In this document: one piece after another, positions 6,090 through 62,962 of the stretch
How positions within the stretch are numbered: the stretch's first letter is position 1
Layout: every line of letters begins with the position of its first letter
Program-made: the position numbers and the translations under genes
Notes under the pieces: model-generated
What the model saw: the letters and a program-made list of their open reading frames with translations, nothing else
What the model was told of the DNA's origin: nothing
Databases searched by the model: none
From: Sandaracinaceae bacterium
GTDB lineage: Bacteria > Myxococcota_A > Polyangia > Polyangiales > JAFGIB01
Assembly: GCA_017881055.1 (NCBI GenBank)
Contig: JADGRF010000040.1
Span: forward strand, 1 to 64,000
Length of the DNA stretch: 64,000 bases
Direction: 5' to 3'

Positions 6090-6575
6090 CTACTTGCGGT
6101 GACGCTGCTCGACCTGCGCGAGCAGCTCGACGCCTGCTGCCCCACGATCGCCGGGCTCTGTGTCGAACCAGGCTGCGAGCAGCTCTTTCGCGAGATCATC
6201 GGCGAGCGTGCGGTTGGACAAGCACAGCACGTTCGCGTGGTTCCAGACGCGTGCCGCGGCGGCTTGTCCCGGGTCGGTGCACAGGGCGGCCCGGACGCCT
6301 GCGACCTTATTGGCGGCGATGCTGATGCCGGTGCCCGTCCAACAGAAGAAGATGCCTTGTTCGCAGCGCCCACTCGCCACCGCCTCGGCCGCTTGTTCAG
6401 CGATCACGGCCCAGCCGTGGGGGGCCGCAGGCTGCTCCGCGGGTAGGTTACTAGCTTCCTCGTTCCCCTCGGCGATCGCGCCGAACGGTACGACCTCGTG
6501 CCCGCGCTCCGCGAGCCAGCGCGCGACGGTCGCGTGCACGGGGTACGATTCGTCGGAACAGAGCGCGATCCGCAT
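6090..6575 (-). CDS. rpiB: RpiB/LacA/LacB-family sugar-phosphate isomerase with an unusual insert
   Basis: This 161-residue protein interconverts aldose and ketose phosphates, classically ribose-5-phosphate and ribulose-5-phosphate. The catalytic segment GIFFCWTGTGISIAANK carries the expected active-site Cys (C78), with VRAALC and NHANVLCLSNR following. Residues about 40-52 (EASNLPAEQPAAP) are extra compared with what I know of close relatives, where FGA...G is followed within about a dozen residues by WPEVAEQ-type sequence. The DNA for this insert (about 6416-6454) matches the hairpin repeat found at 42.6 kb, with TACCCGC-GAGCAGCCTGCGGC nearly identical on the minus strand. The insert is about 39 bp, so the frame is kept. 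It converges with the preceding glycosidase. Confidence 0.85.
   Translation of the reverse strand: MRIALCSDESYPVHATVARWLAERGHEVVPFGAIAEGNEEASNLPAEQPAAPHGWAVIAEQAAEAVASGRCEQGIFFCWTGTGISIAANKVAGVRAALCTDPGQAAAARVWNHANVLCLSNRTLADDLAKELLAAWFDTEPGDRGAAGVELLAQVEQRHRK
6416..6454 (+). repeat. Hairpin element copy inside rpiB
   Basis: Stem arms CCGTGGGG (6416-6423) and CTCCGCGG (6435-6442) pair with two G-T wobbles. They enclose GCC-GCA-GGC and an unpaired TG. The tail GGTAGGTTACTA follows. The plus strand reads in the same orientation as the 42.6 kb array, with GCCGCAGGCTGCTC shared exactly. It lies wholly within the rpiB coding region, antisense to it. Confidence 0.75.
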
Positions 6576-6747
6576 GCGCCCGTGAGCATAGCAAAGTGGC
6601 GCGCTGGCGGGGCATCCAGACCGAACGCCGGTGTCAGCGAGCGTTGCCCGCGGCTGCGCACGCGGTTACAACGTGGCGCCCGGATAGGTCGCGGCGTCGC
6701 GGTCTCACCGCGCCCCGCGCCGACCCCTTGGGGCGTAGCCGCCGTCT

Positions 6748-8169
6748 GTGAACTTCCATTCGCTCGACTACTTCGTGTTCTTGGCGTGCGCGCTCGTGGG
6801 CTACCACGCGCTCGCCCGACGCGGCAGCCTCCGTCTAGGCTTTTTGTTCGTCGCGTCGTGCGTGTTCTACATGGCGTGGAACCCGGCGTACATCGCGCTG
6901 GTTCTGTTCTCGATCACGGTCGACTACGTCGCGGGCGGTGCGATCGCAGGCGCCAAAGATTCGCGCGGGAAGCGCGCCTGGCTCACTGCCAGCGTGGTCG
7001 TGAACCTGGGCCTGCTCGGGACCTTCAAGTACTTCAACTTTTTCGCGCGCGCGTTCGCCGACACCGTTCACGTGTTCGGCGTTCCGATCTCGCCGGCACA
7101 CCTCGACGTGATCTTGCCGATCGGCATTTCGTTCTACACGTTCGAGAGCTTGAGCTACACGATCGATGTCTATCGCGGGCGGATCGAGCCCACGCGCAAC
7201 TTCATTCGCTTCGCGTGCTTCATCACGTTCTTTCCGCACTTGGTCGCAGGACCTATCGTGCGCGCGTCCGACTTCTTGCCGCAGCTCGATGGGCCGCGCC
7301 GCTTGGACTCGAAGCTCGTGAGCGAGGGCGTGTTCCTGATTGCGACCGGGCTCGTGAAGAAGATCGTGTTCGCGGACTACCTGGCCGTGAACCTGGTCGA
7401 TCGCGTGTTCGACGATCCGACAGCGTATTCGTCGTTGGAGGTCATGGTCGGCCTGTACGCCTACACGATGCAGATCTTCTGCGACTTTTCCGGCTACACC
7501 GACGTCGCACGCGGCAGCGCCATGCTGTTTGGTCTGCGCCTACCCGAGAACTTCGATCGTCCGTACCAGGCCACGAGCCCGGCGGAGTTCTGGCGGCGCT
7601 GGCACATGACGCTGTCGACCTGGCTGCGCGACTATCTGTACTTCCCGCTGGGCGGCTCGCAGGTCGCGCCGCTGCGCGCGTACTTCAACCTTTGGATCAC
7701 GGTGTTTTTGGTCGGCCTGTGGCACGGCGCGGCGTGGACGTTCGTGATCTACGGCCTTCTGCACGCGACCGCGATGGTGATTCACCGCTACTTCGTTCGG
7801 CGGCTTGGGCGTGGGGCGCGCCAGCCGGATCCGCTGCATTTGCGTGTGCTCAAGGTGCTGGGCACGCTGCATTTCGTGGTCCTGTCGCGCATCTTCTTCC
7901 GGGCTCCCGATGTGCACAGCGCGTTCGGCGTGATTCGCCAACTGGGCGCCGGATCGACGGCGCTGTTCCACGTCACTGCATCGCTTTGGTGGCTCCTGCT
8001 CGCCGGCTACTTCGCGCACTACACACCGCGCGGCCTGTTCGACGGTCTGCGCGAGCGCTTCTCCATGCTGCCGGCGCCAGCACAAGGCGTGCTGCTGGCG
8101 GGCGTCGCCGCGACGCTGATGCTCGTCGCCACCCAAGATGTTGTACCCTACATCTACTTCCAGTTTTGA
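6748..8169 (+). CDS. MBOAT-family membrane O-acyltransferase (AlgI-like)
   Basis: This 473-residue multispanning membrane protein belongs to the MBOAT family with AlgI/PatA-like features: NLGLLGTFKYFNFF, LPIGISFYTFESLSY, FFPHLVAGPIVR, FDRPYQATSPAEFWRRWH and the catalytic-histidine motif GLWHGAAWTF. Such proteins move acetyl groups from the cytoplasm to partner proteins in the periplasm that O-acetylate polysaccharides. GTG 6748 is used because the family N-terminus (YFVFLACALVGYH) starts there. No strong ribosome-binding site is visible. The next gene starts six bases after the stop and encodes an SGNH protein. A second SGNH gene follows on the opposite strand, so the cluster looks like a complete acetylation module. 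Confidence 0.93.
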   Translation: MNFHSLDYFVFLACALVGYHALARRGSLRLGFLFVASCVFYMAWNPAYIALVLFSITVDYVAGGAIAGAKDSRGKRAWLTASVVVNLGLLGTFKYFNFFARAFADTVHVFGVPISPAHLDVILPIGISFYTFESLSYTIDVYRGRIEPTRNFIRFACFITFFPHLVAGPIVRASDFLPQLDGPRRLDSKLVSEGVFLIATGLVKKIVFADYLAVNLVDRVFDDPTAYSSLEVMVGLYAYTMQIFCDFSGYTDVARGSAMLFGLRLPENFDRPYQATSPAEFWRRWHMTLSTWLRDYLYFPLGGSQVAPLRAYFNLWITVFLVGLWHGAAWTFVIYGLLHATAMVIHRYFVRRLGRGARQPDPLHLRVLKVLGTLHFVVLSRIFFRAPDVHSAFGVIRQLGAGSTALFHVTASLWWLLLAGYFAHYTPRGLFDGLRERFSMLPAPAQGVLLAGVAATLMLVATQDVVPYIYFQF

Positions 8170-8175
8170 ACGCAG

Positions 8176-9744
8176 ATGGCTTTGGATTTGGCATTGGCTG
8201 CGCAATCCCGCGAAACACCTGAGCAGCCCGCCGCGACGAGCGAGTCCGTTGCGACTGAGCCCGTTGCGCCTCACGACAATACGCGCGTGGCGTTGCGGCG
8301 CCTGGCGGTGATCTCGGCGACGATGATCGCGTGCGGCGTCGCGAGCTACGCAGTGCCCGGGCTCGCACGCGTGCGGCCTTGGGTCGCGGGCGAAGGTGTG
8401 CCGGTGGTGCGCTTGTTCGTGGCGCCCGTGCGCTCCGAATTGCCCGAGTTCGAAGGCGGCGGCGCGGCCGTTGCCAGCGCTACGCCAGACAAAGCCGCAG
8501 CGGGTGCTCCGTCGATGGAACCGGACGACGGCGACTCCGACAGCGAGACCCACGGCACGCTCGCAGGCTCGGGCTTGACGATTGATCCTGCCGAATACGC
8601 CGAGCTGACTCAGCCGATTGAATTTCCCGAGGCCCTCGGCGCATTCTATGCCGCACTGCAGAAGAGCGCACAGGGCCAGACCGGCGCCATCACGCGTATC
8701 GCGCACTACGGTGACTCGGCGATTGCAGCTGACGAGATCACGCACACCGTGCGTCGCAAGCTGCAGAAACGCTTCGGCGACGCCGGTCACGGCTTCATGC
8801 TGATCGCGCACGGCACGATGCATTACCTGCACTACGACATCGCGCACCGCGAGAGCGACGGCTGGGACGTGCTCACGATTGTGCAGCGCCAGATGAAGAA
8901 CGGCCACTACGGCTACGGCGGCGTCGTCGCGCGCGGAGCCGCCGGTGAGCACGTGGTGTTCGGCACCGTCGCGGATGGGGTGGTCGGTCAGCACGCCTCG
9001 CGTTTCGAGCTGTTCTATCAGAAGTTTCCCGGCGGCGGCGACGTGCGCCTGGTCGTCGATGGCACGCCGGAAAAGACCATCAGCACCCGCGCGACGGACG
9101 TCGAAGATGCCTGGGAGAGCGTGCTGGTGCCGGACGGCGCGCACATGTTCTCGGTCCGCGCGCTCGGCAATGAAGTGCGGCTCTATGGCATCGCACAAGA
9201 GCGCGAAGGTCCGGGGGTCGTGTACGACTCGATCGGCCTGGTCGGTGCGCAAGCCGTGCGCTTGCTGAACGCCGATGCCGAGCATATGGCCGCGCAGATC
9301 GCGCATCGCAAGCCGGACTTGCTCGTGCTCGGCTTCGGCGGCAACGAGGCGGGCAACGAGTGGCTCGACACCGACCGCTACGCCGAGGGGCTCACGCGCG
9401 TCGTGAAGCTGATGCGCGCGGGTAACCCTGGCATGTCGTGTCTCTTGTTCGCTCCGCTCGATCAAGGTGAGCGTAACTCACGCGGCGATCTCGTCTCGCT
9501 CAAGGTCTTGCCGGCGATCGTCGAAGCGCAACGAAAGATCGCAAAAGAGCAGGGCTGCGCGTACTACGACACGTTCCAGGCGATGGGCGGTCAGAACTCG
9601 GTCGCGCGTTGGTTTCGTAAGCATCCGCGGCTGATCAGCTCGGACTTCCGGCACGCGACGCCTGCCGGCTACATCGCGGTGGCCGACCAGTACTACAAAG
9701 CGTTGATCAAGGGCTTTGCGGACTACCTGGCGCAGCGTCACTGA
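8176..9744 (+). CDS. Membrane-anchored SGNH/GDSL acetyl-transfer/esterase protein
   Basis: This 522-residue protein starts six bases after the MBOAT gene and is probably co-transcribed. It has one N-terminal membrane segment (about 40-62, LAVISATMIACGVASYAV), an Ala/Asp-rich spacer, then an SGNH fold. Block I is HYGDSAIAADEIT with the candidate catalytic Ser. Block III is GFGGNEAGNE. The Asp/His pair lies in SDFRHATPAGY near the C-terminus. In alginate and peptidoglycan acetylation systems such proteins receive the acetyl group from the MBOAT partner and pass it to the polymer. The last 38 bp overlap the 3' end of the converging SGNH lipoprotein gene. The polymer acted on is unknown. Confidence 0.85.
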   Translation: MALDLALAAQSRETPEQPAATSESVATEPVAPHDNTRVALRRLAVISATMIACGVASYAVPGLARVRPWVAGEGVPVVRLFVAPVRSELPEFEGGGAAVASATPDKAAAGAPSMEPDDGDSDSETHGTLAGSGLTIDPAEYAELTQPIEFPEALGAFYAALQKSAQGQTGAITRIAHYGDSAIAADEITHTVRRKLQKRFGDAGHGFMLIAHGTMHYLHYDIAHRESDGWDVLTIVQRQMKNGHYGYGGVVARGAAGEHVVFGTVADGVVGQHASRFELFYQKFPGGGDVRLVVDGTPEKTISTRATDVEDAWESVLVPDGAHMFSVRALGNEVRLYGIAQEREGPGVVYDSIGLVGAQAVRLLNADAEHMAAQIAHRKPDLLVLGFGGNEAGNEWLDTDRYAEGLTRVVKLMRAGNPGMSCLLFAPLDQGERNSRGDLVSLKVLPAIVEAQRKIAKEQGCAYYDTFQAMGGQNSVARWFRKHPRLISSDFRHATPAGYIAVADQYYKALIKGFADYLAQRH

Positions 9745-11182: not shown

Positions 11183-11214
11183 AGTGTTACGGTTCCGATG
11201 CGCGAGGGTACGCG

Positions 11215-11604: not shown

Positions 11605-11881
11605 CTTTGGTACTCCGACAGGCAATATAACGTGGCCAGGTCGGGATTGCCAACGGCCACCTTGCCCGAAGACGCCATAAAAGGCGGCGATATGTGCATC
11701 TATCGGACAATGCGCGCCAGGGCAAGAGCCCGGCGCCCTTTCGGGCTGCCTAGCTAGGCTATGCAGGCGAGCACAAACGGCTCGCGCACGTGGTCTCCCA
11801 TGTCGGGATACGACGCATCCTGCGCGGTCGAGCAGCCGCGGAAATGAGTTGATCTGTCGCGCGCTGCGATCACGCTCTAGG
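11605..11881. other. Divergent intergenic region with two inverted repeats
   Basis: This is 277 bp between the Cys-rich lipoprotein (minus) and the MopE-type lipoprotein (plus), so it must hold promoters for both. AGCCCG (11727-11732) pairs with CGGGCT (11742-11747) over a 9-base loop. It is followed at once by the perfect 12-bp palindrome GCCTAGCTAGGC (11748-11759). I see no clear sigma-70 boxes. Confidence 0.5.
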
Positions 11882-13114: not shown

Positions 13115-13243
13115 GTCAGTCGCTTCACGTCGAGGCTCCGGCGCCTTCTTCGGCGTGAGCTCCCACAGGCGCGCGCGCCGTGACAAGACTGGGACGCTTT
13201 GCGCTTCGTTCGGAGCGAGGTTAGCCTTGCGACGGTGCACGCG

Positions 13244-16681: not shown

Positions 16682-18158
16682 CGTCGCAGAGCTTCCGTTG
16701 CAGTTGCTGCTGCGTCGGGAGCGTAGCTGGGTGCGCGAGTCGGTCGTCGTGGTGAGCGAGGACAAGCCGCAGGGCACCGTGCTGTGGGTCAATGCGCGGG
16801 CGCGAGAGCGCGGTGCTCTGCCAGGTCAAAGCTACGCGCTGGCGCTCTCGATCGTGCCTGGCCTACGTGCGGGAGTCGTGGCGGACGTGGAGCTTCGCGA
16901 GGCGCGCGAAGAGCTCATGATCGAGTTGTGGCGGTTTTCGCCGCGCGTCGAAACCGCAGAAGAGCAGGGCGTGTTCTGGCTCGACGCCAGCGGGCTCGGT
17001 CTGTTGTTTCCGAAGCTGTCCCGTTGGGCTCACGAGCTGCGCGTGCGTCTTTCCGTGTGTGGCTTTGCGGCCAACGTGGTGGTCGGTTTTTCGCGTTTTG
17101 GAACGTACGCAGTCGCGCGCGCCGGCCGTGACAACCGCGTGTTCACGAGCGCTGACGAGGAACGAGCCTCGTTCGTGGGTGTCCCGCTCGCGTGCCTCGA
17201 CATCGAGCCGGAATTCCGCGATGTGCTGCACAAGCTCGGCGTGCACAGTATCGCGGATCTGTTGCAGCTGCCGGCTGCAGGGCTCCTGCAGCGCTTCGGC
17301 AAGATCGCGCATCGTCTGCATGCGCTCGCGGCGGGCGAGCTGCTCTCGCCATTCGATCCCACGCGCTGGCTCGAGCCGCTGGCCTCGTGCGCACACTTGG
17401 ATGACGCCGAGACGAGCTCTACGGCTCTTCTGTTCGTGATCAAGCGTCTGCTCGACGCGTTACTGCCCAAGCTCGTCGTGCGCGGTCAAGCGCTGTCTGC
17501 GTTGCGGTTTACCTGCAAGCTCGATCGTGCCGCGGGGCAGCTCGGGCCCGAAGAGCTACGTCCGGCGGTGCCCACGCTTTCGAGCAGCGAGCTGATGGAC
17601 CTCGTGCGCTTGCGCTTGGAGACGCTGACGCTTGCCGCAGGTGTGATGACGGTGGAGCTCGACGTTACGGGTGTCGAAGCTTCCGCCGAGCAGCTCAGCG
17701 TGTTCGTCGAGCAACCTCGTCGCGATCTCGCCGCAGGCTCGCGCGCGCTGTCGCGTCTGCGTGCCGAGTTCGGAGAGGCTGCAGTCGTAGCTGCCGTGCT
17801 CACGCCGGGGCATCTGCCGGAAGCGTGCTTCGTATGGAAACCGATCGCGCAGCTGCGCTTGCCGCGCTCTGCGGTACGCGTCGCCAGCGGGAATCGTCCG
17901 CTGGTGCGACGCATCCATGCCAAGCCGGAGACGTTGCACGCGCCACCGCGGCACGTACGCGACGACGGCTGGCTGGTGCGCGGAGCCCTATGCGGTCCCG
18001 TCACGCATCAAGCGGGACCGTTCATCGTGTCGGGTGGTTGGTGGGTGCGCGAAGTGCACCGCGACTATCGAATGCTGCTCACGCGGCGCGGAGATCTGTT
18101 CTGGGTCTTTCACGATCGTCGCCGTCGTCGGTTTTTCCTGCATGGCGAGGTGCAGTGA
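16659..18158 (+). CDS. imuB: ImuB, Y-family polymerase-like mutasome subunit
   Basis: This 499-residue protein starts at GTG 16659 inside the end of imuA. ImuB resembles Y-family polymerases but usually lacks catalytic acidic residues and acts as the hub that links ImuA and DnaE2 to the beta clamp. Here the N-terminus has [16 protein letters not shown] where a Y-family enzyme would have a DMDAFYA-type motif. [35 protein letters not shown]-type palm sequence and [25 protein letters not shown] (helix-hairpin-helix) follow the family order. The dnaE2 start overlaps the stop (TGATG). Expressed from the lexA2 promoter. Confidence 0.9.
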
Positions 18159-21100
18159 TGGTCCACGCGTGCGCACCGCTGTGGTGCAAGAGCAACTTCT
18201 CGTTTCTCGAGGGTGCGAGCCACCCCGACGAGCTGATCGAGGAAGCGCAGCGGCTCGGGTTTTCGTCGCTAGCGTTGACGGACCGCGACGGTGTGCACGG
18301 TGTCGTGCGTGCGCATCAGAAAGCTTTGGAGCTCGGCATGAAGCTGATCGTCGGCTCCGAGATCACGATCGATGACGGTTCCACGATCGTGCTGCTCGCG
18401 AAGGATCGTGCGGGCTACGCCAACTTGTGTCGGCTGATCACACGCGGTCGCTTGCGCCACGAAAAGGGTAAATCCAGCGTGAGCTGGGCCGAGGTGTGCG
18501 AGCACGCGCCTGGGCTCATTGCGCTGTTCGGCGGCGACAGATCGCTGCTGCTAGCGCCCGAAGAGCCGCTGCTCGTGACCAACCAGCTGCGGGATGCGTT
18601 CGGCGAATCGCTCTACGCGCTGTGGACGCGCCACCGACGTGCCAAAGAGCCAAACGTCGAGGCGTTGCTGCGCGAACGCGCCGCTCGCTACGAGTTGCCG
18701 CTCGTGGCTGCAACCGAGATTCTCTATCACACACCCGCGCGAAGGCCGCTGCAGGACGTGCTCACTTGCATCAAGCATCGCGTCACGCTGCAGGAAGCGC
18801 GTACGCTGCTCAAGCCGAACGCGGAGCACGGGCTCAAGGGCCCTCATGCGCTCGGCGCCTTGTTCGTCGATGCGCCGTCCGCGCTCGAGCGCAGCGCCGA
18901 GATTGCAGCGCTCTGCAGTTTCTCGCTCGGTGACATTCGCTATCGGTATCCGTCCGAAAACTTGCCGGATGGGTCCACGTCGTCGTCGTGGCTGCGCAGC
19001 CTGGTGTCTTCCGGTGCACGCAAACGCTACGGGAACGAGGTTTCTTCGGCGGTTCGGCTGCAGCTGGACAAAGAGCTCGATGTCATCGACCGGCTCGACT
19101 ACTGCGGCTACTTTTTGACGATGTGGGAGATTGTCGAATTCTGCAATGCGCAGGGCATTCTCTGCCAAGGTCGAGGGTCAGCTGCAAACTCTGCGGTGTG
19201 TTATTGCTTGGGCATCACGGCGATCGATCCCGTGCGCATGGGCCTTTTGTTCGAGCGATTTTTGTCGATCGAGCGCGCCGAGCCGCCGGACATCGATCTC
19301 GACATCGAGCACGAACGTCGCGAAGAAGTGATTCAGCACGTTTATGCGAAGTACGGACGCACGCACGCAGCGATGGTCGCAAACGTGATCCGCTATCGTT
19401 CGCGTTCGGCGTTGCGGGACGTGGGTAAAGCGCTTGGCATGCAGGAGACTACGCTCGATCGCATTGCCAAGTTGCTTTCGCACTGGGATAAAGCGGACGG
19501 CGAAACGCTGCGCGTGGCAGGCCTCGACATGGACGCGCCGCTGACTCGGCACTTGGTCGAGCTGTCGGAAGAGATCCACGGGTTTCCAAGGCATCTGTCG
19601 ATTCACCCAGGAGGTTTTCTGCTCGGGCACGAGCCGGTGCACGACCTCGTGCCGATCGAAAACGGTGCGATGGTCGATCGAACCGTGATCCAGTGGGACA
19701 AGGACGACGTCGAGGCGATCGGCCTGTTCAAGGTGGACTTGCTCGGGCTCGGTGCGCTCACGCAGCTGCACATGGCGTTCGACCTGCTGCGTGTCGAACG
19801 TGGGGTCGAGCTGTCGATGGCCACGATCCCCCCGGAAGATCCCGCGACCTACGCGATGATCCAGCGTGGCGATACGGTCGGAGTATTTCAGATCGAGAGC
19901 CGTGCGCAGATGGCGATGCTGCCGCGGCTTCGGCCCGAGAACTTCTACGATCTCGTGATCGAGGTCAGCATCGTGCGCCCAGGCCCGATCACCGGCGGCA
20001 TGGTCCATCCCTATCTGCGTCGTCGCAAAGGCGAAGAAGAGATCACGTACCCGCACGAGTGCCTGATCCCCGTACTGAAGAAGACTCTGGGCGTTCCGCT
20101 GTTTCAGGAGCAAGTGATGCGCTTGGCCGTGGTTGCGGCCGACTACACCCCCGGCGAAGCGGATCAGCTACGGCGTGACATGGCTGCGTGGCGAAAGAGT
20201 GGGCGGATCGAGTCGCACCGTGAACGCTTACTCTCGCGCATGCAGAAAAGGGGCATACCAGAGGAGTTTGCCGATCGCGTGTTCAAGCAGATCCTCGGCT
20301 TCGGCGAGTACGGCTTTCCGGAGAGCCATGCGGCGAGCTTCGCGTTGATCGCATACGCCACGGCATACCTGCGCTGTCATTGGCCGGCCATCTTCACGTG
20401 CAGCCTGCTCAACGCGCAGCCGATGGGCTTCTACTCGGCTGCGACGATCGTCGACGACGCCAAGCGACACGGCGTGATCGTTCATCCGATTCGCGTCCAC
20501 GACAGCGCCGTCGAGTGCACCTTGGTAGAAGAGAATGGTGTGCGCATGGGTCTGCGTTACGTGAAAGGGTTGTCCCGCGAGCAGGCGCTGCGCATCGTGA
20601 AAACGCGCGAGCTCGAAACGTTTGCGTCGCTCGAGGATTTCGTGGAACGCACTGCACTCGATGCCAAAGCGCTGTCGGTGCTGTCGGAGGCAGGCGCTTT
20701 CGATGGCTTCGGCACCGCGCGCCGCGATGCGCTGTGGGATGTGCGCTCCCTTTTGCGCGAGCGCGACACGACGCTTTCACTCAATCGGTTGGCCAGCAGC
20801 GCGAGCTTCGCAGCGCTACTTCCACTCGAGGAAATCGTCTGGGACTACCGCAGCACGCAGCACAGTCCGCGCGCCCATCCGTTGTCCATGCTGCGGAAGG
20901 AGCTGCGTAAGCAGGGGTTGCCCAATGCGTTTGACATCGGCGCGCTGCGCCACGGAACGCGTGTCCGCTACGCGGGCCTCGTGATCTGTCGTCAGAGGCC
21001 AGGCACGGCGTCGGGCGTGACGTTCATGACTCTCGAAGACGAAACTGGTTTCGCCAACGTAGTGCTCTGGAAGCGCGTCTTCGATGCGCAAACGCTGCTC

Positions 21101-21238
21101 GCTCGCACGGCTTCGTTCCTCGGTGTGACGGGGAAGATTCAAACCGAAGGCGGTGTGGTTCACATCGTCGCCGAAGAGCTCTGGGAGCCGCACGTACAAG
21201 ACGCGCCGCTTTCACCCAAGAGTCGCGACTTTCATTAG
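18158..21238 (+). CDS. dnaE2: Error-prone DNA polymerase III alpha-type subunit DnaE2
   Basis: This 1026-residue polymerase is the third mutasome member (ImuC). It has a PHP domain at 1-200 ([24 protein letters not shown]), the catalytic palm with [15 protein letters not shown] carrying the two active-site Asp residues, then [17 protein letters not shown], and a C-terminal OB-fold ([25 protein letters not shown]). This matches DnaE2 in length and motifs rather than the larger replicative DnaE. The start is ATG 18158, overlapping the imuB stop. It performs translesion synthesis under SOS induction. The stop codon's last base is the first base of a hairpin element that fills the gap to the converging kinase gene. 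Confidence 0.97.
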
Positions 21239-21273
21239 CGAAAAGCCGAAGGCTGTTTCGCGTGTATATAATC
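21238..21273 (+). repeat. Hairpin element at the dnaE2/kinase convergent junction
   Basis: Stem GCGAAA (21238-21243) pairs with TTTCGC (21256-21261). Inside are AGCC-GAA-GGCT and an unpaired G at 21255. The tail GTGTATATAATC runs into the kinase stop codon at 21272-21274. It has the core architecture of the 42.6 kb and nuo copies and may act as a terminator in both directions. Confidence 0.75.
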
Positions 21274-24200
21274 AAGCGCCGGAAGTGATCTCGTCGGTCA
21301 CGTTGCGCGCGATCGCCTCGAGCACGGACTTCCGAATGGGCCGAAGCATCTCGCTGCCGATGCGCAAGGCCACTGCGCCGATCAGCTTGCTGCTGCGGCC
21401 TCCGGTGGCGAGCATGATCGTCGCACAGCGTTCGTCGTTGGTACCGCCCTCGCTGCCCGGTGCGACGACGGCAATCTCCATGGGTGCATGCGCGTCGCCG
21501 GGAGTCGGCGGGTCGATGTTCGCACGCGTGGCTTCGAAGCGCTCCGAGAGCAAGCGCTCGACGTCGTCGGTGGCTTCGCGAGCCGAGAGATTCGCGACGA
21601 GCCTCAAGCGCTCTTCGCGCCAAAGATACAGATGCCCCGACGTGCCCGCGCACTGCTCGACGATGATGTGCAGCGCACGCGCCGCGCGCTCATCGAGGTT
21701 CTTGCAGTCGTCGAACAGCTCGTCGATGCTGGCGATCTGTCGCTGGGTCGTGACCCGCGTCACGGCTTCTTGACTCGGAGGAATCGACGGTGCGTGACCC
21801 TCGCGGGTCTCGAGCTCTCTGAGCCCTTCTGCGACTCGCTGTGCGCGCATCAGTAACGACGGGTTACGCGTCAGCGCGTACCAGCGCTTCATGAGGTCGA
21901 CGTGTGCGTCGCGACGTCCACGATCGCGAGCCTGGTCCGCGACCTTCGCGCCAACCTCGTGCAAAAGGCCGACCATGACGGGCTGGTCCGCGTCCTTCAT
22001 CTGCTCCATGAGCCGATCGATGCGTGCCAGCGCGGACGCCGTGTCGTGAAGCTCGGCCTCGGCGCGAGCCAGCTGCAGCTCGAGCGTCAACGTCATCGCC
22101 GAGGGCACCGCCTCCCGCGCGGCATCGCTTGCCAATGCGGTTTGCATGAGCTCACGCGCGCGATGCGGATCTCCGACGGCGAGCAGCATGTCCGCGTAAC
22201 TCGTGTACAACGAATCCCAGCCAGCGATGTCTCCGGGCTTCACCGCCGGAATCCACTTGGCCATGGTCGTCAGCGCTTCTTGCGGTTTGCCGAGGCTGAA
22301 GCTCAGGTACGCACGCGACTGATCCAAGAACGGCGCCAGCACCGGATACTGCGGCGTGAGCTGCACCAGTAGCTCTCCGCTGCGTCGCAGAGCTGCAAGA
22401 TCCATCATGCGTTGCGCAACGCGCAGATCGATCAGCGTGCGCCAGACATCGAACTGGAACTGCAGCCCGGTCTGGATCGTGTGCATGTGCAGCTTGTCGC
22501 GATGGGCCTCGGCCTTCTCGCGCTCGCCGCGCATCAGGTGATAGACCATGCGAATCTGATGCGCCGCCATCGTCAGCTCCGGCGTCGTGATGCCGCCTTG
22601 CTGCGCGATCTCGGCGCTGCCGGGCTCGAGCACGCTCGGATCGCTCGTCAGCTTCGCCAGCTCGTCGATCATGTCGAGCGCGCGCTGTCCGCGCACCGAG
22701 TACTGCGTCTCGATCATGCCGAGGCCGATGTAGATGCTCGCGATCACGCCGCGCCGCGCCGCAGAGCCGATGCGACCACCGAAGTTCTGCGAGGCTTTCG
22801 CCAGCTCGAGCGCCTTTTGCTGGTGGTTGCGCGCTTGCTCGGGCATCGAGCGCAGCGTGAATGTCGCACCGCGCAGAAACAGCGCCGTCACCTGACCCAT
22901 CGGACCCGCTGCCGAGAGCATCTCGGCCTGCGTGGTCAGTCGCTCCATTCCCACGATGTCCATCGTGGACGTGCGCATAGTCATCAGCGCATAGGCGGTC
23001 CGGTAGAACGCTGCAATCGCCGTCAAGGGGCGCGGTCCGCGCTTGCTGTGTGGGGTGAGCCAGCGTCGCATCGTCGCGAGCAACACCGCGATCACGAGGC
23101 TTGCGGTCGCGCCAAACAGCGGACGCAAGGTCTCCGCCATGGGCGCGCCTGCATAGTAGAGCAGGGCGATCGCCGTCTCGTCGCCGTAACGTGCACAGAT
23201 TCGTCGGTCCAACGAGCCAACCATCGTCGTGCGTAACCGCAAGCACTCGCGCGGCGCACGCCCCTGTTTTTCATACAGCTCGAGCGCTGCTTCCAGGGCC
23301 GGCAGTGCAGCTGACGTTGCGATTCCTCGGCCCGCGAGCTTTGGTGCCGCTTCGGCTAGCAAGTCGGCGCCGCGTCGTTCGTCGCCGCCGCGCAGCACGT
23401 GCCAGCCCGCCTCGACTCGTTCCTCCGGACGTTGCGCGCCGCCTGCGAGCAGGGCCTCGCCGAGGCGCCGGTGCAACAGCTGGCCGCGCTCGGGCGCGAG
23501 CTCCGACAGCAATACTTCGCGCAGCGCTTCCTGGCCGAAGTGATAGCCATCGGGTGCGTCCGCGAGCACACCCTTTGCGACCAGCTCATCGATCGTCCGA
23601 AATACATCCGCCGGGGTCTTCTCTTCGGCTAACGCGAGGCAGAGCTGCAGCGGGATTGCACCGCGGCGGACGCATAGCGCTTCAGCCATTCCGCGCTCGG
23701 CCGGTGAAAGCGCCGCGGCCCGCGCGCTCATCGTGGCCGCGAGGCTCAACGGGAGTTGATCTTTAGGCACCGATGGCGGCAGCACCCACATGCCATCCGA
23801 GAAGCGAATCAGACGCTTGTCCGCGAGGTGCCGTGACAGCTCGATGATCTGCGTCGGACTGCCTGTGGTGATGTCATGGATCCAGTTGCCGAGCTCGTCG
23901 ACGTTCGGCACGTCACCGAACATCGAACGGATCAGCAGCAACGTGTCCTTGCGGCGCAAGCGATGAATGCGAATGCGACGCGACTGATCCGCGATGGCAG
24001 CTACCGCTTCCGGTGCCGACACGGAGCTCGCCAGACGGCGCGTCGCAATCAGCAGCACGCGCCTATGCTTGGCTTCTTGCGTCAGCACGCCCAAGAGCGC
24101 GGCCGAGCCTTCATCGACGCGATGCAGATCGTCGACCAGAATCACGAGCGTGTGATCTTCACTGACGGCCAAGAGCCATGCTTGGAATGCCGCATGCAGC

Positions 24201-25432
24201 TGCGTTCGCAGCACGCCTGGATTGCCGGGCAACGATGCGCGCGGCTGATCGCTCTCGAAGGCATCGAAGAAGTGCGCGAGCACCGGAGCATGAGGGACAG
24301 CGGCTTCTCTCGCATCGTGGGGTGCGGCATGCATGATGCCCTTGGCGATGGCCTGCGCGACCGCGTTCGGCCCCCGGTTGCTGCGCGCTTCGACGCGAAT
24401 CGTGAGCGCCCCGGTGAGCTGTGCTTGCAATGCAGCTTCGTCGAGCAACCGTGTCTTGCCTACGCCGGGATTGCCCTCGATCAGCACGGCTCCGCCCTGC
24501 TTGGCATGGGCTCGCGCGATCCGCCGATGGATGGTCTCCATCGGCCGCGAGCGACCGATCAAGCGCGAGCTGAGCAAGTAGCTCTCGGCGGTGCGCACGA
24601 GGTCATCGTCCGGTGGCAGCTCCCCGATGGACGTGAGCCGGTCGATCACCTCGGACGTGCTCACCGGTCTGTACACCGGGTCCAAGCTGAGCATCGACAT
24701 CACGAGGTCATCGAGCTCGACCGGCACGTCTTCGACCAGCTCGGAAACGCGCGGCGGCGGCGTTCGCCACAGCTCCGGCAGGTCTTCCAGCTGACGCGCG
24801 CGATATGCATGGCGCGTGGTGAGTAGCCGGTACGCGAGCGCGCCCAGCGAATACAGATCCGAGCGATGGTCGAGAGACATCGCACGCAGCGCTTCGGGTG
24901 GCACCATCGGCGGTGTGCCCACGATCTCGTCGGGTACGCCGAAGTTCGCCATCGTGCCGAAGTCGAGCAGCTTGCAGCGACCATCGCTGGTGATGCGTAC
25001 GTTGCGCGGACTGAGATCGCGGTGCAGGCGCTTGCGCGTATGCAGAAGCGCGAGAGACGACGCGACGTCACGCAAGTAACGGCACGCATCCCGGTAAGGA
25101 ATGGGTGCGAGCTCGCTCAGGTCGCGCCCGTCGAGCAGCTCCATGGTGTAATACGGGCCGACCTCGTCGATGCCGTAGTCAAATACCTCGACGATGCGCG
25201 GATGCTTGAGTCGCGCCAGCGTGTGGTACTCGCGCTCGAACAGCGCGGAGATGCGTGGGTTGTTCGAGACCGTCGGCGAGAGTCGCTTCAGCGCGACGTG
25301 ACGATTGGTGGACAGATCGAACGCGCGATACACGACACCGACGCCGCCGCGCGCCAGCTCGCGCTCCAGGCGGTAACGGCCCACGACCAGCACGGGGTCC
25401 GCGGTCTCGGTTGCGGCGTGCTCGGTTTGCAC
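21272..25432 (-). CDS. Ser/Thr protein kinase fused to AAA ATPase, helical repeats and GAF-like domain
   Basis: This 1386-residue protein starts at GTG 25432. Residues 19-265 form a Hanks-type kinase: glycine loop ARGGVGVVYRA, K49 (VALK), catalytic HRDLSPRN (D139), DFG (157-159) and an activation segment ending in VPPE. A P-loop ATPase follows with Walker A EGNPGVGKTR (about 319-328) and Walker B LVILVDDLHRVDE. About 600 residues of TPR-like helices come next (FLRGATFTLRSMPEQARNH, LMQTALASDAAREA). A GAF-like domain ends the protein (about 1210-1380). This STK-AAA-TPR-GAF layout is a known giant-kinase type in myxobacteria and some cyanobacteria, used for sensing and signalling. The ligand and target are unknown. 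It is monocistronic and converges with dnaE2. Confidence 0.92.
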   Translation of the reverse strand: MQTEHAATETADPVLVVGRYRLERELARGGVGVVYRAFDLSTNRHVALKRLSPTVSNNPRISALFEREYHTLARLKHPRIVEVFDYGIDEVGPYYTMELLDGRDLSELAPIPYRDACRYLRDVASSLALLHTRKRLHRDLSPRNVRITSDGRCKLLDFGTMANFGVPDEIVGTPPMVPPEALRAMSLDHRSDLYSLGALAYRLLTTRHAYRARQLEDLPELWRTPPPRVSELVEDVPVELDDLVMSMLSLDPVYRPVSTSEVIDRLTSIGELPPDDDLVRTAESYLLSSRLIGRSRPMETIHRRIARAHAKQGGAVLIEGNPGVGKTRLLDEAALQAQLTGALTIRVEARSNRGPNAVAQAIAKGIMHAAPHDAREAAVPHAPVLAHFFDAFESDQPRASLPGNPGVLRTQLHAAFQAWLLAVSEDHTLVILVDDLHRVDEGSAALLGVLTQEAKHRRVLLIATRRLASSVSAPEAVAAIADQSRRIRIHRLRRKDTLLLIRSMFGDVPNVDELGNWIHDITTGSPTQIIELSRHLADKRLIRFSDGMWVLPPSVPKDQLPLSLAATMSARAAALSPAERGMAEALCVRRGAIPLQLCLALAEEKTPADVFRTIDELVAKGVLADAPDGYHFGQEALREVLLSELAPERGQLLHRRLGEALLAGGAQRPEERVEAGWHVLRGGDERRGADLLAEAAPKLAGRGIATSAALPALEAALELYEKQGRAPRECLRLRTTMVGSLDRRICARYGDETAIALLYYAGAPMAETLRPLFGATASLVIAVLLATMRRWLTPHSKRGPRPLTAIAAFYRTAYALMTMRTSTMDIVGMERLTTQAEMLSAAGPMGQVTALFLRGATFTLRSMPEQARNHQQKALELAKASQNFGGRIGSAARRGVIASIYIGLGMIETQYSVRGQRALDMIDELAKLTSDPSVLEPGSAEIAQQGGITTPELTMAAHQIRMVYHLMRGEREKAEAHRDKLHMHTIQTGLQFQFDVWRTLIDLRVAQRMMDLAALRRSGELLVQLTPQYPVLAPFLDQSRAYLSFSLGKPQEALTTMAKWIPAVKPGDIAGWDSLYTSYADMLLAVGDPHRARELMQTALASDAAREAVPSAMTLTLELQLARAEAELHDTASALARIDRLMEQMKDADQPVMVGLLHEVGAKVADQARDRGRRDAHVDLMKRWYALTRNPSLLMRAQRVAEGLRELETREGHAPSIPPSQEAVTRVTTQRQIASIDELFDDCKNLDERAARALHIIVEQCAGTSGHLYLWREERLRLVANLSAREATDDVERLLSERFEATRANIDPPTPGDAHAPMEIAVVAPGSEGGTNDERCATIMLATGGRSSKLIGAVALRIGSEMLRPIRKSVLEAIARNVTDEITSGA

Positions 25433-42555: not shown

Positions 42556-42606
42556 GTCCGAGAGCTAAACGCTCCCGGGCTCACCCGTCAAAAAATGCGC
42601 CGCTCC

Positions 42607-42766
42607 GCCGAGAGCCGCAGGCTGCTCGGCGGGTATTTCGCTACTTGGCCGAGAGCCGCAGGCTGCTCGGCGGGTATTTCGCTACTTGGCCGAGAGCCGC
42701 AGGCTGCTCGGCGGGTATTTCGCTACTTGGCCGAGAGCCGCAGGCTGCTCGGCGGGTATGTGATTA
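42607..42766 (+). repeat. Four-copy 41-bp hairpin element array
   Basis: Copies begin at 42607, 42648, 42689 and 42730. Each has outer stem GCCGAG with CTCGGC, core AGCC-GCA-GGCT and a bulged G, then the tail GGGTATTTCGCTACTTG. The last copy has the variant tail GGGTATGTGATTAAGG, which contains the TAA stop of the minus-strand TSP3 gene. The spacers are identical, so this is not a CRISPR. Confidence 0.92.
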
Positions 42767-44293
42767 AGGTTTGCCAGCCGCCTTGGGCGCAGTAGCACCG
42801 TGCGTCGGAGCGGGAGGGCCGCCCTCTTCGGGGCAGCCGTCGTCGTCCTCGAAGCCGTCTTTGTCTTCGGCTTGATCGGGACACTGATCCTGATCGTCGG
42901 GGATGCCGTCGCCATCGAAGTCGACTTCGGGGCAGCCGTCGTCGTCGCCGAAGCCGTCGGTGTCCTCGGGCTGGTCCGGACACTTGTCCTTGGAGTCCTC
43001 GATGCCGTCGCGGTCGCGGTCGTCGTCGGGGCAGCCGTCGTCGTCACGATCGCCGTCTTTGTCTTCGGCTTGATCGGGGCACGAGTCGTAGCCGTCGAGG
43101 ATGCCGTCGTTGTCGTTGTCCTTGTCGGGACAGCCGTCTTGATCTTGGAAGCCGTCCGGATCCTCGGGATCGTTCGGACACTTGTCCTGCGCGTCGGGGA
43201 TGCCGTCGCCGTCGTTGTCGGTGTCGGGACAACCGTCGTCATCGAGGTAACCGTCTTTGTCTTCCGGCTCGGTGGGGCAGGCATCGACGTTGTCACCGAT
43301 GCCGTCGCCGTCGCTGTCGATGCCGGCCGGCTGGTACGCAGCACCCGCGATGATGCGGAACACAGGTGTACCGACGCCGGAGAGCACGCCGGCACCGCCG
43401 CCCGCCTGGAACACGAAGTCCCCCTGCGTGAGCTTGCCGCCGAGGCGCCACTCGATCGGATTGCCGTCGGTGTTGCGGTTGAAGCGCGTCGCGCCCGCGA
43501 CTTCGCTGACGACTGCGAGCAGCGAGGTCACGTCGAAGCCCGCTGCGACGCCGTACGTCATCTCCGAGCCGGTCGTCGTGGAAAGCAGCTGACGCTCCGG
43601 GCGGAACGCGCCGCCGAGGTTCGCGCCGAAGCGAAGACGAGCCATTCGATACTCGGCCGCGAGATTCGCGCCGGCCGTGACGCCGTCGTCGCCGATGTTG
43701 TGACCTTTGGCGATCGCATTGCCGAGCGGCAGCGTCATGTAACCGATGCCAGCGAGCAGGAACCCTTTGGTGCCTTCACCGGCCAAGCGCACCTTCGCGG
43801 ACAAGCGCGGGTCGCCGACGCCGAACGCGCTGCCACCGCGGATGTCGACGTACGGCTGGCTGAGCGCAGGACCCGTGCTCGCGTGGTAGCTGTCACCGGT
43901 CGTGTACACGAGCGGCAGGAGCAGACCGAACTGCACGCGCTGCCACATGGTCAGCGTGCCGCCGAAGTAGCTCGCCAGCTGCATCTTCACGATGTCGCGC
44001 TTGGAAGCTTCGAGCGAGCAGTTGCTGGTGTTGCCACCTGGGCACTTCGCTTCGTAGATCACGAACGGGCGATGCGCGTAATCGACGACGATTTCTGCGC
44101 TCGGCGTCACGTGACCGCCGACCATCGCGCCATCGACCTGCAGATAGTTGCCGGCACCGACCGCTGGCACGAAGCGGTTGGTAGAGACCTGTTGATTGGG
44201 GACCTTCTGAGCGTGCGCGGTACCGGTCCCTGAAGGACCGAGCATCACGCAACCCAGGCACAATCCGATTAGGAAGCCGAGCCTTCCGCGCAT
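42764..44293 (-). CDS. Outer-membrane protein with thrombospondin type 3 repeats
   Basis: This 509-residue exported protein starts at ATG 44293 with AGGAG upstream and has a signal ending in TAHAQ. Residues about 40-320 are amphipathic strands typical of a beta-barrel (FGLLLPLVYTTGDSYH, FGVGDPRLSAKVRL, TYGVAAGFDVTSLLAV). Residues 325-490 form Ca-binding thrombospondin type 3 repeats (DSDGDGIGDNVDACP, DNDGDGIPDAQDKCP and similar). Relatives usually end in an OmpA-like peptidoglycan-binding domain. Here only PAPTHGATAPKAAGKP follows and the stop falls inside the hairpin array, so the domain may have been lost. It is upstream of, and divergent in direction from nothing: the same-strand tonB operon ends 238 bp before it. 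Confidence 0.88.
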   Translation of the reverse strand: MRGRLGFLIGLCLGCVMLGPSGTGTAHAQKVPNQQVSTNRFVPAVGAGNYLQVDGAMVGGHVTPSAEIVVDYAHRPFVIYEAKCPGGNTSNCSLEASKRDIVKMQLASYFGGTLTMWQRVQFGLLLPLVYTTGDSYHASTGPALSQPYVDIRGGSAFGVGDPRLSAKVRLAGEGTKGFLLAGIGYMTLPLGNAIAKGHNIGDDGVTAGANLAAEYRMARLRFGANLGGAFRPERQLLSTTTGSEMTYGVAAGFDVTSLLAVVSEVAGATRFNRNTDGNPIEWRLGGKLTQGDFVFQAGGGAGVLSGVGTPVFRIIAGAAYQPAGIDSDGDGIGDNVDACPTEPEDKDGYLDDDGCPDTDNDGDGIPDAQDKCPNDPEDPDGFQDQDGCPDKDNDNDGILDGYDSCPDQAEDKDGDRDDDGCPDDDRDRDGIEDSKDKCPDQPEDTDGFGDDDGCPEVDFDGDGIPDDQDQCPDQAEDKDGFEDDDGCPEEGGPPAPTHGATAPKAAGKP

Positions 44294-56653: not shown

Positions 56654-56654
56654 C

Positions 56655-57494: not shown

Positions 57495-57604
57495 GCGCGG
57501 CAGCCTACGACCGAGCGGCCGGCTCGTGCAAACGGTTCGAAAGCGGGTCGATTTCCTGCGCACACCCCCGCCGGGGGCACGCGCTCGTGTAGATTGCCCG
57601 AAGC

Positions 57605-59035: not shown

Positions 59036-59065
59036 CGGATCGCGCGCCAGCAGCACAATCGCTGC

Positions 59066-60382: not shown

Positions 60383-60385
60383 GCC

Positions 60386-61048
60386 ATGACTTCAAAACCA
60401 CCCGCAGTCGTTCGCCTCTACGAGTCCACGATTCCCTCAGGCAACGCGTACAAGGTGCGCCTTCTGTGCGCGCAGCTCGGCCTGTCTCCCGAGATCGTGG
60501 AGCTCGACATCCTCGCGCAGCCCTCGCAGACGCGCACGCCCGAGTTTCTCGCGAAGAATCCGAACGGTCGCATTCCGGTGATCGAGCTCGAAGACGGCTC
60601 GTTTCTCGCCGAGAGTAACGCAATTCTCTGCTACTTGGCCGATGGCACGCACTACCTGCCGAGCGAGCCGCTCGCGCGAGCACGCGTGTTGCAGTGGCTG
60701 TTCTTCGAGCAGTACAGCCATGAGCCGTATCTCGCAGTGTTGAAGTTCTGGACGCACTGGGGCGGGCTGGATCGCAAGCGTCCGGACGAGATCGCCCTCT
60801 GGAAGACGCGTGGGCAAGCGGCGCTCGGCGTGATGAATCAGCAGCTCGAGCGTCAGCCGTGGTTCTCCGGCGCGCACTACGGCATCGCGGATATCGCGCT
60901 CTATGCGTACACCCAAGACGCCGACGACGTGGGCTTCGATTTCACCACGCTCGCCGCGCTGCGAACGTGGCTCGAGCGCGTGCGTGCGCAGCCGGGCTAC
61001 GTCGCGATGAAGCCCGATCCGCTGGGTAAGAAGCCGACGCTTCCCTGA
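60386..61048 (+). CDS. Glutathione S-transferase
   Basis: This 220-residue protein has a thioredoxin-fold N-domain with LYESTIPSGNAYKVRLLC (Ser in the position that activates the thiol), NPNGRIPVIELEDG (cis-Pro) and LAESNAILCYLADG (glutathione contact). The C-domain is helical, ending in FTTLAALRTWLERVRAQPGYV. It conjugates or reduces substrates with glutathione. It follows pepP by three bases and converges with the GT-C gene. The class (for example Nu or Ure2-like) cannot be fixed. Confidence 0.93.
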   Translation: MTSKPPAVVRLYESTIPSGNAYKVRLLCAQLGLSPEIVELDILAQPSQTRTPEFLAKNPNGRIPVIELEDGSFLAESNAILCYLADGTHYLPSEPLARARVLQWLFFEQYSHEPYLAVLKFWTHWGGLDRKRPDEIALWKTRGQAALGVMNQQLERQPWFSGAHYGIADIALYAYTQDADDVGFDFTTLAALRTWLERVRAQPGYVAMKPDPLGKKPTLP

Positions 61049-61057
61049 GCGACGACC

Positions 61058-62674
61058 TCACGCTTCGGGAGGGTCCGTTTCGAAGATGAGCAGCTTCGTA
61101 CCCTTGACGGAGCGCTTGCTCGTCGCGTGGTAGCCCGCGTTTCGGATGCTAGCGAGTAGGTGTCGCGTGGTCGTCGCGTCGATCTTCACGCAGATCAGAA
61201 ACAGTCGGCGATACGCCTGCTTGGTAAGCGGGTTCTTGCCGAGCCGTTGCTGCGCGGGCACCACGCGCGGCAGCATGATCACACCGGGCTCTCGCACGCG
61301 AATGTCGTAGCCCGAGCCAATGCCGGGCCTGCCCGTGATCTGGACGTTCCAGTGCGTGTAGAGCGCAAACACGTAGCGGTCTTCCGGATAGACCAGCGCG
61401 GCATCGTCCGCGGTCTTCTCCTGCTCCATCACGGCGATCAGGTCGGCAGCTCCCTGACCTTCGGGATAGGTGATGCGCGGTGCGCCGATCCCTGGCAGAA
61501 AGCGCGCCGCGATCAGCAGTGTGAGTAGCGAGGTCGCGAGGGCACGGAACCGTTCGTCACGCACGTGCTCGAGCAGGTACGCGAGCCCACTCACTACGAG
61601 CAGGAGGTGCACGGGGTGCAGGTAGATGTCGATCCGGTAGCCGCCCAAAGGGTAGAGCCGCAGCGCGGAGAGCACGAGCGACTGCGCGTACAGCGCCAGC
61701 ACAGCCAGGCCGAACCAGCGCTGCTCTGTGCGCCGGAGCGAGACGACGAGTCCGAGCGCCGCCAGCGCGGCGCAGATCAAGAGCACGACCTGGCCGCCCT
61801 GGGGGAATGAGCCGGCCAGGAAGTTCCGCCACACATGATCACGCAGGAACAGCACCCAGTCCTTGTGCGACTCGCCCAGCGGCATGAAGACGTGGCGCCC
61901 CTCCCAGTAATGCTCGAGCGAGCCGGTCTTCTGCCGACGCAGAAGCAGCGCGTAGTACAGCGCGAGCGCGAGATCGAACGCGGCGCAGCACGCGACGCTG
62001 AGCGCACGCCTCCCACGAAGCGAACGCGTCGCAGCTTCGTGGCGTTCCTGGTGTTCGCGCGGGGCAAGCCAGAGTGCGAGTGCGCCGAGATGGATCAGCA
62101 CGACGGCGACGAAGCACACGCTGTGGCCGAACGGCTGCAGCAACACGCTCACCGTGACCAGCGCCGCCAGCGGACGCAGCGCGCGGGTGCTGATCACCTG
62201 CAGGAAGATTCCCAACAACAGAAGTGTCGCGAGTCCTTCGAGCGTGTATTGCTTCACGTGCGTCGAGTACGTGACAATGGCCGGCGACACCGCGATCAGA
62301 GCCGCTGCCAAAACGCCGAGGCTCCGACTGCGGAACATGCGCAGCACGAGCAGTCCGAACACCGGAATGAGGGCCAGGCCCGCGGCGAACGGCAGCGCTT
62401 GGCCCGCAAGCTCGACATCGGTGCCCGCATCGAGGATCACTTTCATGATCAGCGTGAAGCCCACCGGCGACGACCGGCCCGCACCAAGCACGCCCTCGTG
62501 CCAGCCGACCTTCCTGACCAGCGCGACCCAGGCGTCGTCGTACCAGAGGGCTCCGGGGTCGAGTCCGGTGCGCCGCGCCCAGGCCGCGGCGACGCAGATC
62601 GCGGCCAGTCCGACTGCGAAGCCGATTCGTGCAGTTCGCGACGCGGCGGGTCCGTTGAGCGAAGGCGTGTCCAT
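61058..62674 (-). CDS. GT-C/PMT-type integral-membrane glycosyltransferase
   Basis: This 538-residue protein has about ten to eleven membrane helices. The first periplasmic loop carries the acidic pair WYDDAWVALV, the hallmark of GT-C enzymes such as ArnT and PMT, which transfer sugars from lipid-linked donors. LAAALIAVSPAIVTYSTHVKQYTLEG is also typical of ArnT-like proteins. The C-terminal 150 residues are soluble and face the periplasm. The acceptor could be lipid A, protein or another glycolipid. It is divergent from the nuo operon and lies downstream of the GST gene, converging with it. Confidence 0.85.
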   Translation of the reverse strand: MDTPSLNGPAASRTARIGFAVGLAAICVAAAWARRTGLDPGALWYDDAWVALVRKVGWHEGVLGAGRSSPVGFTLIMKVILDAGTDVELAGQALPFAAGLALIPVFGLLVLRMFRSRSLGVLAAALIAVSPAIVTYSTHVKQYTLEGLATLLLLGIFLQVISTRALRPLAALVTVSVLLQPFGHSVCFVAVVLIHLGALALWLAPREHQERHEAATRSLRGRRALSVACCAAFDLALALYYALLLRRQKTGSLEHYWEGRHVFMPLGESHKDWVLFLRDHVWRNFLAGSFPQGGQVVLLICAALAALGLVVSLRRTEQRWFGLAVLALYAQSLVLSALRLYPLGGYRIDIYLHPVHLLLVVSGLAYLLEHVRDERFRALATSLLTLLIAARFLPGIGAPRITYPEGQGAADLIAVMEQEKTADDAALVYPEDRYVFALYTHWNVQITGRPGIGSGYDIRVREPGVIMLPRVVPAQQRLGKNPLTKQAYRRLFLICVKIDATTTRHLLASIRNAGYHATSKRSVKGTKLLIFETDPPEA

Positions 62675-62962
62675 TTTGGGCCTAGCGAGCGCCGCTTTCT
62701 AGCGCGCGCACGACTCGGGGGATAGGGCGGCCCACATGCACGCACCCGAATGGGGGCGGCCGGGCCCAGCGCCGACCGCTCGCCCGGCCCGACAAGCGTT
62801 GACACCCGGATAGCGTACGACTAGAAACGGGTGGCACTTTTGTGCGGGATTTACGAACAATTCCGCGATGGTTACGGCCCGCGAAACAGCCTTCGGCTTT
62901 TCGCGGAGGTCACACACCCGCGAAACAGCCTTCGGCTTTTCGCGGAAGCGAAATTCCACGGC
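62675..62962 (+). promoter_or_regulatory. nuo operon upstream region with promoter and two tandem hairpins
   Basis: TTGACA (62799-62804) is followed after 17 bases by TAGAAA (62822-62827), a good sigma-70-type promoter. The hairpins at 62880-62905 and 62919-62944 lie downstream of it, so both should be transcribed in the nuo leader. No other gene is visible in this 288-bp stretch. Confidence 0.7.
62880..62944 (-). repeat. Two-copy 39-bp hairpin element array in nuo leader
   Basis: Two identical 26-bp hairpins start at 62880 and 62919. On the minus strand each has outer stem CGCGAAA with TTTCGCG, core AGCC-GAA-GGCT and a bulged G. GGTGTGTGACC follows one copy and GGCCGTAACC the other. Same core and bulge as the 42.6 kb array, with a different but self-complementary outer stem. 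Confidence 0.9.

Follow-up and report, generated by a model that had tools for sequence, protein, structure and literature searches.

The 64,000-nucleotide stretch analysed here (the window; contig C81 of the draft genome G000 of a Sandaracinaceae bacterium, 5.88 Mb, 94% complete) carries eight copies of a 42-bp element, a bulged hairpin with a C(GNA)G loop followed by a GGGTATGTNAYYAA tail, whose expansion is restricted to one genus of the Sandaracinaceae, a family placed in Polyangiales, Myxococcota. It is likely that this element is a small non-autonomous mobile palindrome of the kind represented by repetitive extragenic palindromes (REPs) and Rickettsia palindromic elements (RPEs), and the surprising part of the family is its strict link to gene direction. 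REP-like palindromes are common, and for the question of how those lacking a REP-associated tyrosine transposase (RAYT) move, the present family is useful in having alleles with and without the element in sister species, together with a direction rule that any mechanism must explain. A preliminary description of the window had already proposed the mobility of a REP-like unit, which is supported by presence and absence at orthologous sites and by an expansion limited to one genus. It missed the main point, namely that copies follow the direction, the stop codons and the reading frame of genes, and that one of them, placed at 6416, lies inside rpiB.

An expansion within three related genomes

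The exact core AGCCGNAGGCTG was counted in 56 genomes, with the same pattern read backwards as a control. It occurs 215 times in G000 (9 in the reversed control), so that the family is in no way limited to the four loci noticed at first, 152 times in G001 (control 8) and 55 times in G002 (control 14), these three drafts (94, 86 and 94% complete) being the genomes of the genus. The other 53 genomes, four of which belong to the same family, have 1-23 core matches, the largest excess over the control being 6 (G015, 14 vs 8). We also carried out the covariance-model search of the genome and its relatives that the preliminary description had suggested, using a model whose training included copies of three window loci and not the copy at 6413. 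It found the family genome-wide, with at least 141 matches in G000 and at least 132 in G001 (best 150 candidates scored), 49 in G002 and none in the four Sandaracinaceae of other genera. A pattern scan of named genomes returned 44 stretches, of which 43 lie in the metagenome-assembled genomes Sandaracinaceae Chersky_785 and Proteobacteria Chersky.17_24 (the same genomes as G001 and G002); the remaining one, a Lentisphaeria contig, was taken as chance. Transfer by phage gained no support, as viral contigs contained no match of the one exact pattern that was sought in them. The sample for the analyses that follow comprised ~1.0 Mb of G000, 0.93 Mb of G002 (partly duplicated) and 0.20 Mb of G001, and yielded 186 copies when identical contexts are counted once.

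A palindrome that runs with its genes

Orientation was counted from 140 arrays, less 16 that lie close to the end of a stretch and 4 that have no called neighbour, on genes called with a simple codon-usage gene caller. Between co-directional genes the CAGCCTNCGGCT strand is the coding strand in 70 arrays and the other strand in 5, and all 25 in-gene copies have the orientation of their host gene, where open frames alone predict a sense share of 46%. Fourteen arrays lie between convergent genes and six between divergent genes. Replication-strand bias was rejected as the cause, since 11 of the 29 loci with at least two arrays, the window included, carry both strands. The copies also keep close to stop codons: 43 of the 70 co-directional arrays are placed within 6 bp of the upstream stop, compared with a mean of 22 under random placement in the same spacers, and 32 of the 70 have the stop codon inside the element.

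Inside genes, 19 of the 25 copies are in one frame (the QPxA frame), which reads xIPAEQPSALGx (IPAEQPSALGG), a preference that frame openness alone does not readily produce (p ~0.003). Nineteen copies are internal, and 16 of them have the main frame; one is at the very end of its gene, and five, among them the window copy at nuoA, lie at most 16 codons from the called start and may belong to a leader. There are 24 host genes, and the 16 that were scanned with Pfam all gave a match. The copy falls within the matched domain in PheRS alpha, AlaRS, carbamoyl-phosphate synthase, glutamate synthase, a LeuA-like protein, formamidopyrimidine glycosylase and a nitrilase, and outside or between domains in UvrB, an ABC-F protein, a permease (L096) and a methyltransferase (L109); RpiB (two genes) and a CysN/C-like protein are further hosts.

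Such a rule might come from selection alone, if both orientations inserted and the other one was removed afterwards. Purifying selection must indeed shape what remains, as the inserts in genes show by keeping to multiples of three wherever they are clean. Yet the other orientation, which has somewhat more open frames (0.72, 0.92 and 0.58 vs 0.58, 0.43 and 0.88), accounts for none of the 25 copies in genes, a figure to which harm at the RNA level might still contribute. We regard this explanation as a real contender, although we would sooner bet against it.

Filled sites, empty sites and tandem arrays

Twenty-six orthologous comparisons, some reciprocal or of the same site, have flanks on both sides, and in 21 of them the target has no model hit, which provides the empty sites that the preliminary description had thought worth looking for. 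In pheS of G000, 42 bp are present in frame and missing in both sister species. The ABC-F gene of G002 has 36 bp, in frame and just before the second ABC domain, that are missing in G000; a nitrilase-family gene of G000 has three 39-bp units (117 bp) missing in G002; and L057 of G001 has 84 bp (two units) missing in G000. G001 also carries copies opposite positions 30.4 and 37.6 kb of the window, where the window has none. Among the few shared sites, L071 and L082 carry copies in one and the same position, and the two stems, which differ, are both largely paired. A target duplication of the kind that goes with a MITE was not seen at the cleanest sites, whose flanks are only ~73-79% identical. 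This distribution would fit gain rather than loss at most sites. Separately, the segment L144:9446-12866, between two aligned blocks, spans ~3.4 kb in G000 and corresponds to ~0.2 kb in G001 (L045), with an element copy adjoining it in both.

All 44 multi-unit arrays have a single orientation. Among neighbouring arrays (22 pairs were listed, one of which consists of two parts of the window's own array), none of opposite orientation lie within 500 bp of each other, and the five opposite-orientation pairs are 0.5-2.7 kb apart with genes between each. Units are near-identical inside one array and different between loci, and may include flanking bases; this likeness within arrays and difference between loci points to local duplication, possibly by slippage. 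Several contigs end in arrays. Since the flanks at the ends of C12 and C110 match, the assembly seems to have been broken by arrays, whose lengths are then probably underestimates. The ends of C8/C13, C12/C110, C36/C129 and C18/C300 of G000 (L094, L098, L097, L123, L111, L126, L101, L152) carry arrays with matching units, and these contigs probably adjoin.

Candidate enzymes and the RAYT hypothesis

No mobilising enzyme was identified. Y1/RAYT transposases (PF01797) were searched in the genome of the window and six relatives, and gave no match in the drafts of G000 and G002. The claim of the preliminary description that the window has no transposase thus holds for the Y1 (RAYT) type, even over the whole of G000; the window genes were not all scanned for other transposases. 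TnpB (PF07282) was found in none of six genomes, and IS110 in none of the three genus genomes. Reverse transcriptases were rejected as not specific, being present in G000 (1), G001 (1) and G002 (3) and equally in the element-free G003 (3), G004 (2) and G006 (1). IS91-like Y2 transposases were likewise set aside: G000 has 8, G001 1 and G002 9, and the element-free G004 has 7 and G006 1; in two stretches examined (L161, L158) the Y2 match is not beside an element. Many of the IS91-like matches in G000 and G002 are partial and spread over several contigs.

The family might nevertheless be a classical one, moved by a RAYT that was lost, left unbinned or carried on a plasmid in these drafts, the incompleteness of which lends the idea some room. 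The architecture is of the same class (a short bulged palindrome in high copy, found at gene 3' ends and within genes), and REPs with such habits are known (PMC3733652). Besides the missing Y1 matches, hardly any copy has the GTRG head on the 5' side of the stem (2/186 and 0/186, by strand), and mixed-orientation arrays (0/44) do not occur, in contrast to the inverted head-to-head (HH) dimers described as predominant in the REPs of that source (PMC3733652). We find this origin doubtful.

Fold, covariation and the RNA hypothesis

In the 186 copies, high information content extends over the 10 bases that precede the core, the core itself and ~19 bases that follow it, and drops to background beyond; these limits of the conserved block set the unit at 42 bp. 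The consensus is CTMCGCSRAR-AGCC-GMA-GGCT-G-YTYSGCGG-GTATGTNAYYAA, with a stem of 8 + 4 bp interrupted by the bulge and a loop of 3 nt. On the strand running with the host gene it reads TTRRTNACATACCC, then a hairpin with one bulged C and a TNC loop, then GKAG, the C(GNA)G triloop being on the opposite strand. GNA loops closed by C-G form very stable DNA minihairpins.

The stems covary. We aligned without gaps 122 of the 128 first-of-array copies (alignment A1); the 6 left out have no stem, and their omission raises the paired share. Standard pairs fill 92.0% of the pair cells of A1 vs 80.8% in shuffled versions, 156 cells are changed on both sides vs 45 in shuffles, and the covariation score is 0.302 vs 0.101 shuffled and 0.05-0.08 in slid versions; since copies are related, the covariation counts overstate the independent events. 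When all 128 first-of-array copies are taken, the two pairs with the strongest mutual information are outer-stem pairs, with G-C in 75, A-T in 27 and C-G in 13 copies for one of the top covarying pairs, and G-C in 63, C-G in 50 and A-T in 4 for the other. Because the core was fixed by the original search, other cores were sought with the covariance model, which gave 198 hits (108 + 36 + 54), 6 of them duplicates from G002 stretches included twice, which were excluded from the count of core changes. A matched double change of the core is found in 7 of the 26 hits without the exact core: AACC/GGTT (L100), ACCC/GGGT (L082), AGGC/GCCT (L054, L096 and two in L075) and AGTC/GACT (L059), all with the loop-closing C-G pair retained. 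The other 19 have changed loops, bulges or end pairs, or unmatched changes (e.g., the unit pair of L096 at 8.5 kb). The core match at L110:6046-6087 continues into a GC-rich stretch of different build (AGGCTGAGGCTGCTCCCG), which may belong to another repeat.

The element could instead be an RNA element selected at each site, such as a 3' mRNA stabiliser, an attenuator or a processing hairpin, that has spread because it is useful. Its near-constant position on the transcribed strand, often by stops, and the covarying stems are what such an element would show. RNA-level pairing would also favour G-U on the transcribed strand. In the eight outer-stem pairs of the 186 copies (arrays included, hence not independent) G-T mismatches are equally frequent on the two strands, 40 on each, so that resident copies show no evidence of selection on the RNA strand. 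The coding strand of the copy in the rpiB-like gene of the window has a predicted fold no better than shuffled sequence, as DNA or RNA; copies sit inside housekeeping proteins; no hairpin followed by a T-run terminator was found on either strand at the two loci scanned (42.5-42.85 kb and 21.15-21.35 kb); and most compared sites (21/26) are not common to both species. We consider this explanation unlikely. The selection for the fold that the preliminary description had read from compensatory changes is supported only for the family as a whole, by its covarying stems and matched core changes: the fold seems to matter for the element lineage more than for each resident site. Finally, chance similarity of GC-rich hairpins, for which one may cite the ~9 exact cores expected per genome and the six stemless core matches, is refuted by the 215 cores of G000, as well as being at odds with model E-values down to 1e-13 (in-sample) and with orthologous filled and empty sites.

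The copies in the window

All eight copies are present at the four loci where they had been reported, with the outer stems as listed, and the covariance model recovers every one of these loci with an E-value of 2.2e-6 or better. The core with at most one mismatch occurs 12 times in the window, vs 2.1 expected, and Rfam gives no match in the window above gathering score. The reported core, AGCC-GMA-GGCT, is exact (AGCCGMAGGCTG) in seven copies and altered to GGCCGCAGGCTG in the copy at 6416. The GGGTRTRT tail is altered in that copy (GGGTAGGT), in the one at 21238 (GTGTATAT) and in one of those at 62.9 kb (GGGCCGTA). A unit length of 39-41 bp had been given, and it is 41 bp in the array at 42.6 kb and 39 bp in the pair at 62.9 kb.

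The first copy (6413..6454, + strand; 30.7 bits with the covariance model) lies inside an rpiB-like gene of the ribose/galactose isomerase family (6090..6575, - strand; PF02502, LacAB_rpiB, E 2.8e-32). It is a 39-bp net in-frame insertion that encodes ASNLPAEQPAAPHG and is missing from the orthologues in G001, G002, G004 and G006. The report that all stems stay paired needs qualifying here: this copy is fully paired only with G-T wobble pairs on the + strand, which on the rpiB coding strand are A-C mismatches. Each of the two distinct RpiB-family genes of G000 (L121:10031-10513 and the one at 6090-6575) carries the element, close to the N-terminus in one case and internally in the other.

The second copy (21234..21275, +), recognised from the sequence and the covariance model, lies between convergent genes: its left end overlaps the TAG stop of a dnaE-like gene (17825..21238, +) and its right end the stop of a kinase gene (21272..25432, -). 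In G001 (L043) there is no element by the dnaE stop, the kinase gene also being missing there, so that only one flank aligns. Between the same neighbours, this large kinase/AAA gene (21272-25432) is apparently missing in L043, with aligned blocks that jump from 25647 to 21189.

The third locus (42603..42767, +; sequence and covariance model) is a head-to-tail array of four units with a 41-bp period, the right end of which supplies or overlaps the TAA stop of the gene at 42764..44293 (-). Contig C327 of G002 carries the neighbour gene, with no element match among the best 40 of 240 candidates. The fourth (62867..62945, -; covariance model) is a head-to-tail pair with a 39-bp period, just upstream of a nuoA-like gene (Oxidored_q4) whose conserved part, with similarity to G001 and G002, starts at ~62962.

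How the element may have spread

If the element is a mobile palindrome, an enzyme acting in trans would recognise the single-stranded hairpin and its tail, and one unit would be inserted with no visible target duplication, preferably where the hairpin strand is the non-template strand of a transcribed gene. Such insertions would then persist where they cost the host little: at the 3' ends of genes, where the first codons of the element are often a stop, between genes, or in frame, where they would add ~11-14 residues per unit to the protein. Single copies would grow into head-to-tail arrays by local tandem duplication. A bolder version holds that insertion into active genes is transcription-coupled and strand-specific (on the non-template strand or via RNA), that the enzyme is not a Y1 transposase, RAYT or other, and that the process writes IPAEQPSALGG into many housekeeping proteins of one genus; we offer it tentatively, as a possibility with the odds against it. 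In PheRS, AlaRS, carbamoyl-phosphate synthase, glutamate synthase and others, these naturally inserted peptides would show where enzymes tolerate new loops.

A number of points weigh against a mobile palindrome that follows transcription. First, the search for a mobilising enzyme identified none: Y1 is missing from two of the three drafts, and the two Y1 genes of G001 are on short contigs (4.1 and 4.6 kb) that do not carry the element. Second, the direction rule has exceptions in the five arrays of opposite orientation and the six between divergent genes; the 70 arrays that obey it include the window array at 42.6 kb twice; and a superseded count that retained duplicates had one opposite-strand core in a gene (L046), which is not a model hit. 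Third, the orientation and frame results depend on a simple gene caller, and Pfam covers 16 of the 24 host genes. Fourth, many of the 26 orthologous comparisons have diverged flanks (~73-79% identity overall) and several net lengths are not a gain; one 'empty' target (L078, compared with L121) holds a degenerate core-like remnant. The exact ends of the insertions and the lack of a target duplication, read from few sites, are thus probable rather than settled.

Relation to known palindromic elements

The REPs with GTAG or CGTC tags lie near the 3' ends of genes, sometimes supply the stop codon and are sometimes found inside genes, according to PMC3733652; the GTRG head and the association with RAYTs are described in PMC2817692. 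Like GTAG REPs, as these sources present them (PMC3733652, PMC2817692), our elements are short imperfect palindromes in high copy number that occupy co-directional and convergent spacers, lie by stops and mainly at gene 3' ends, occur in some genes and have alternative complementary residues in the stem. Unlike them, they have a GT(A/G)G head 5' of the stem in only 2/186 copies on the + strand and 0/186 on the coding strand, a GKAG-like motif being placed 3' of the stem instead. No RAYT flanked by inverted REPs was found in the drafts of G000 and G002, and there are no inverted HH or tail-to-tail (TT) dimers of the type of bacterial interspersed mosaic elements (BIMEs) or REPINs, which as HH dimers predominate in the known REP families of PMC3733652 (Table 1), only head-to-tail arrays. 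The conserved 12-nt tail on one side is a further difference, and a gene-direction rule as strict as this one was not met in the portions of PMC3733652 and PMC2817692 consulted.

The CGTC REPs, which include Rickettsia RPE-4 and RPE-6, resemble our family in having no known dedicated transposase and in their copies in housekeeping genes (PMC3733652). They differ in the CGTC tag, found on the 5' side of the stem in 2/186 and 1/186 of our copies (either strand), and in having a stem of 8-9 bp and a loop of 4-5 nt, in place of 8 + 4 bp with a bulge, a 3-nt loop and direct tandem arrays. We judge that the family shares REP and RPE habits, without the GTAG head, the CGTC tag, the inverted dimers and, so far, a RAYT.

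By description only, the family can also be likened to the small dispersed repeats of cyanobacteria, which are very short mobile units for which we know of no mobiliser. Palindromic insertions inside protein genes are a habit of Rickettsia RPE-1 too, a family that is to our knowledge confined to Rickettsia. RPE-1 is set apart by its description as longer than our element (PMC3733652). A search of one open-access library for REPs or palindromic repeats in myxobacteria returned nothing relevant. As a kind, the Rickettsia palindromic elements resemble our family in their in-frame insertion into conserved genes, with pheS, the ABC-F gene, the nitrilase-family gene and rpiB all having orthologues that lack the insertion.

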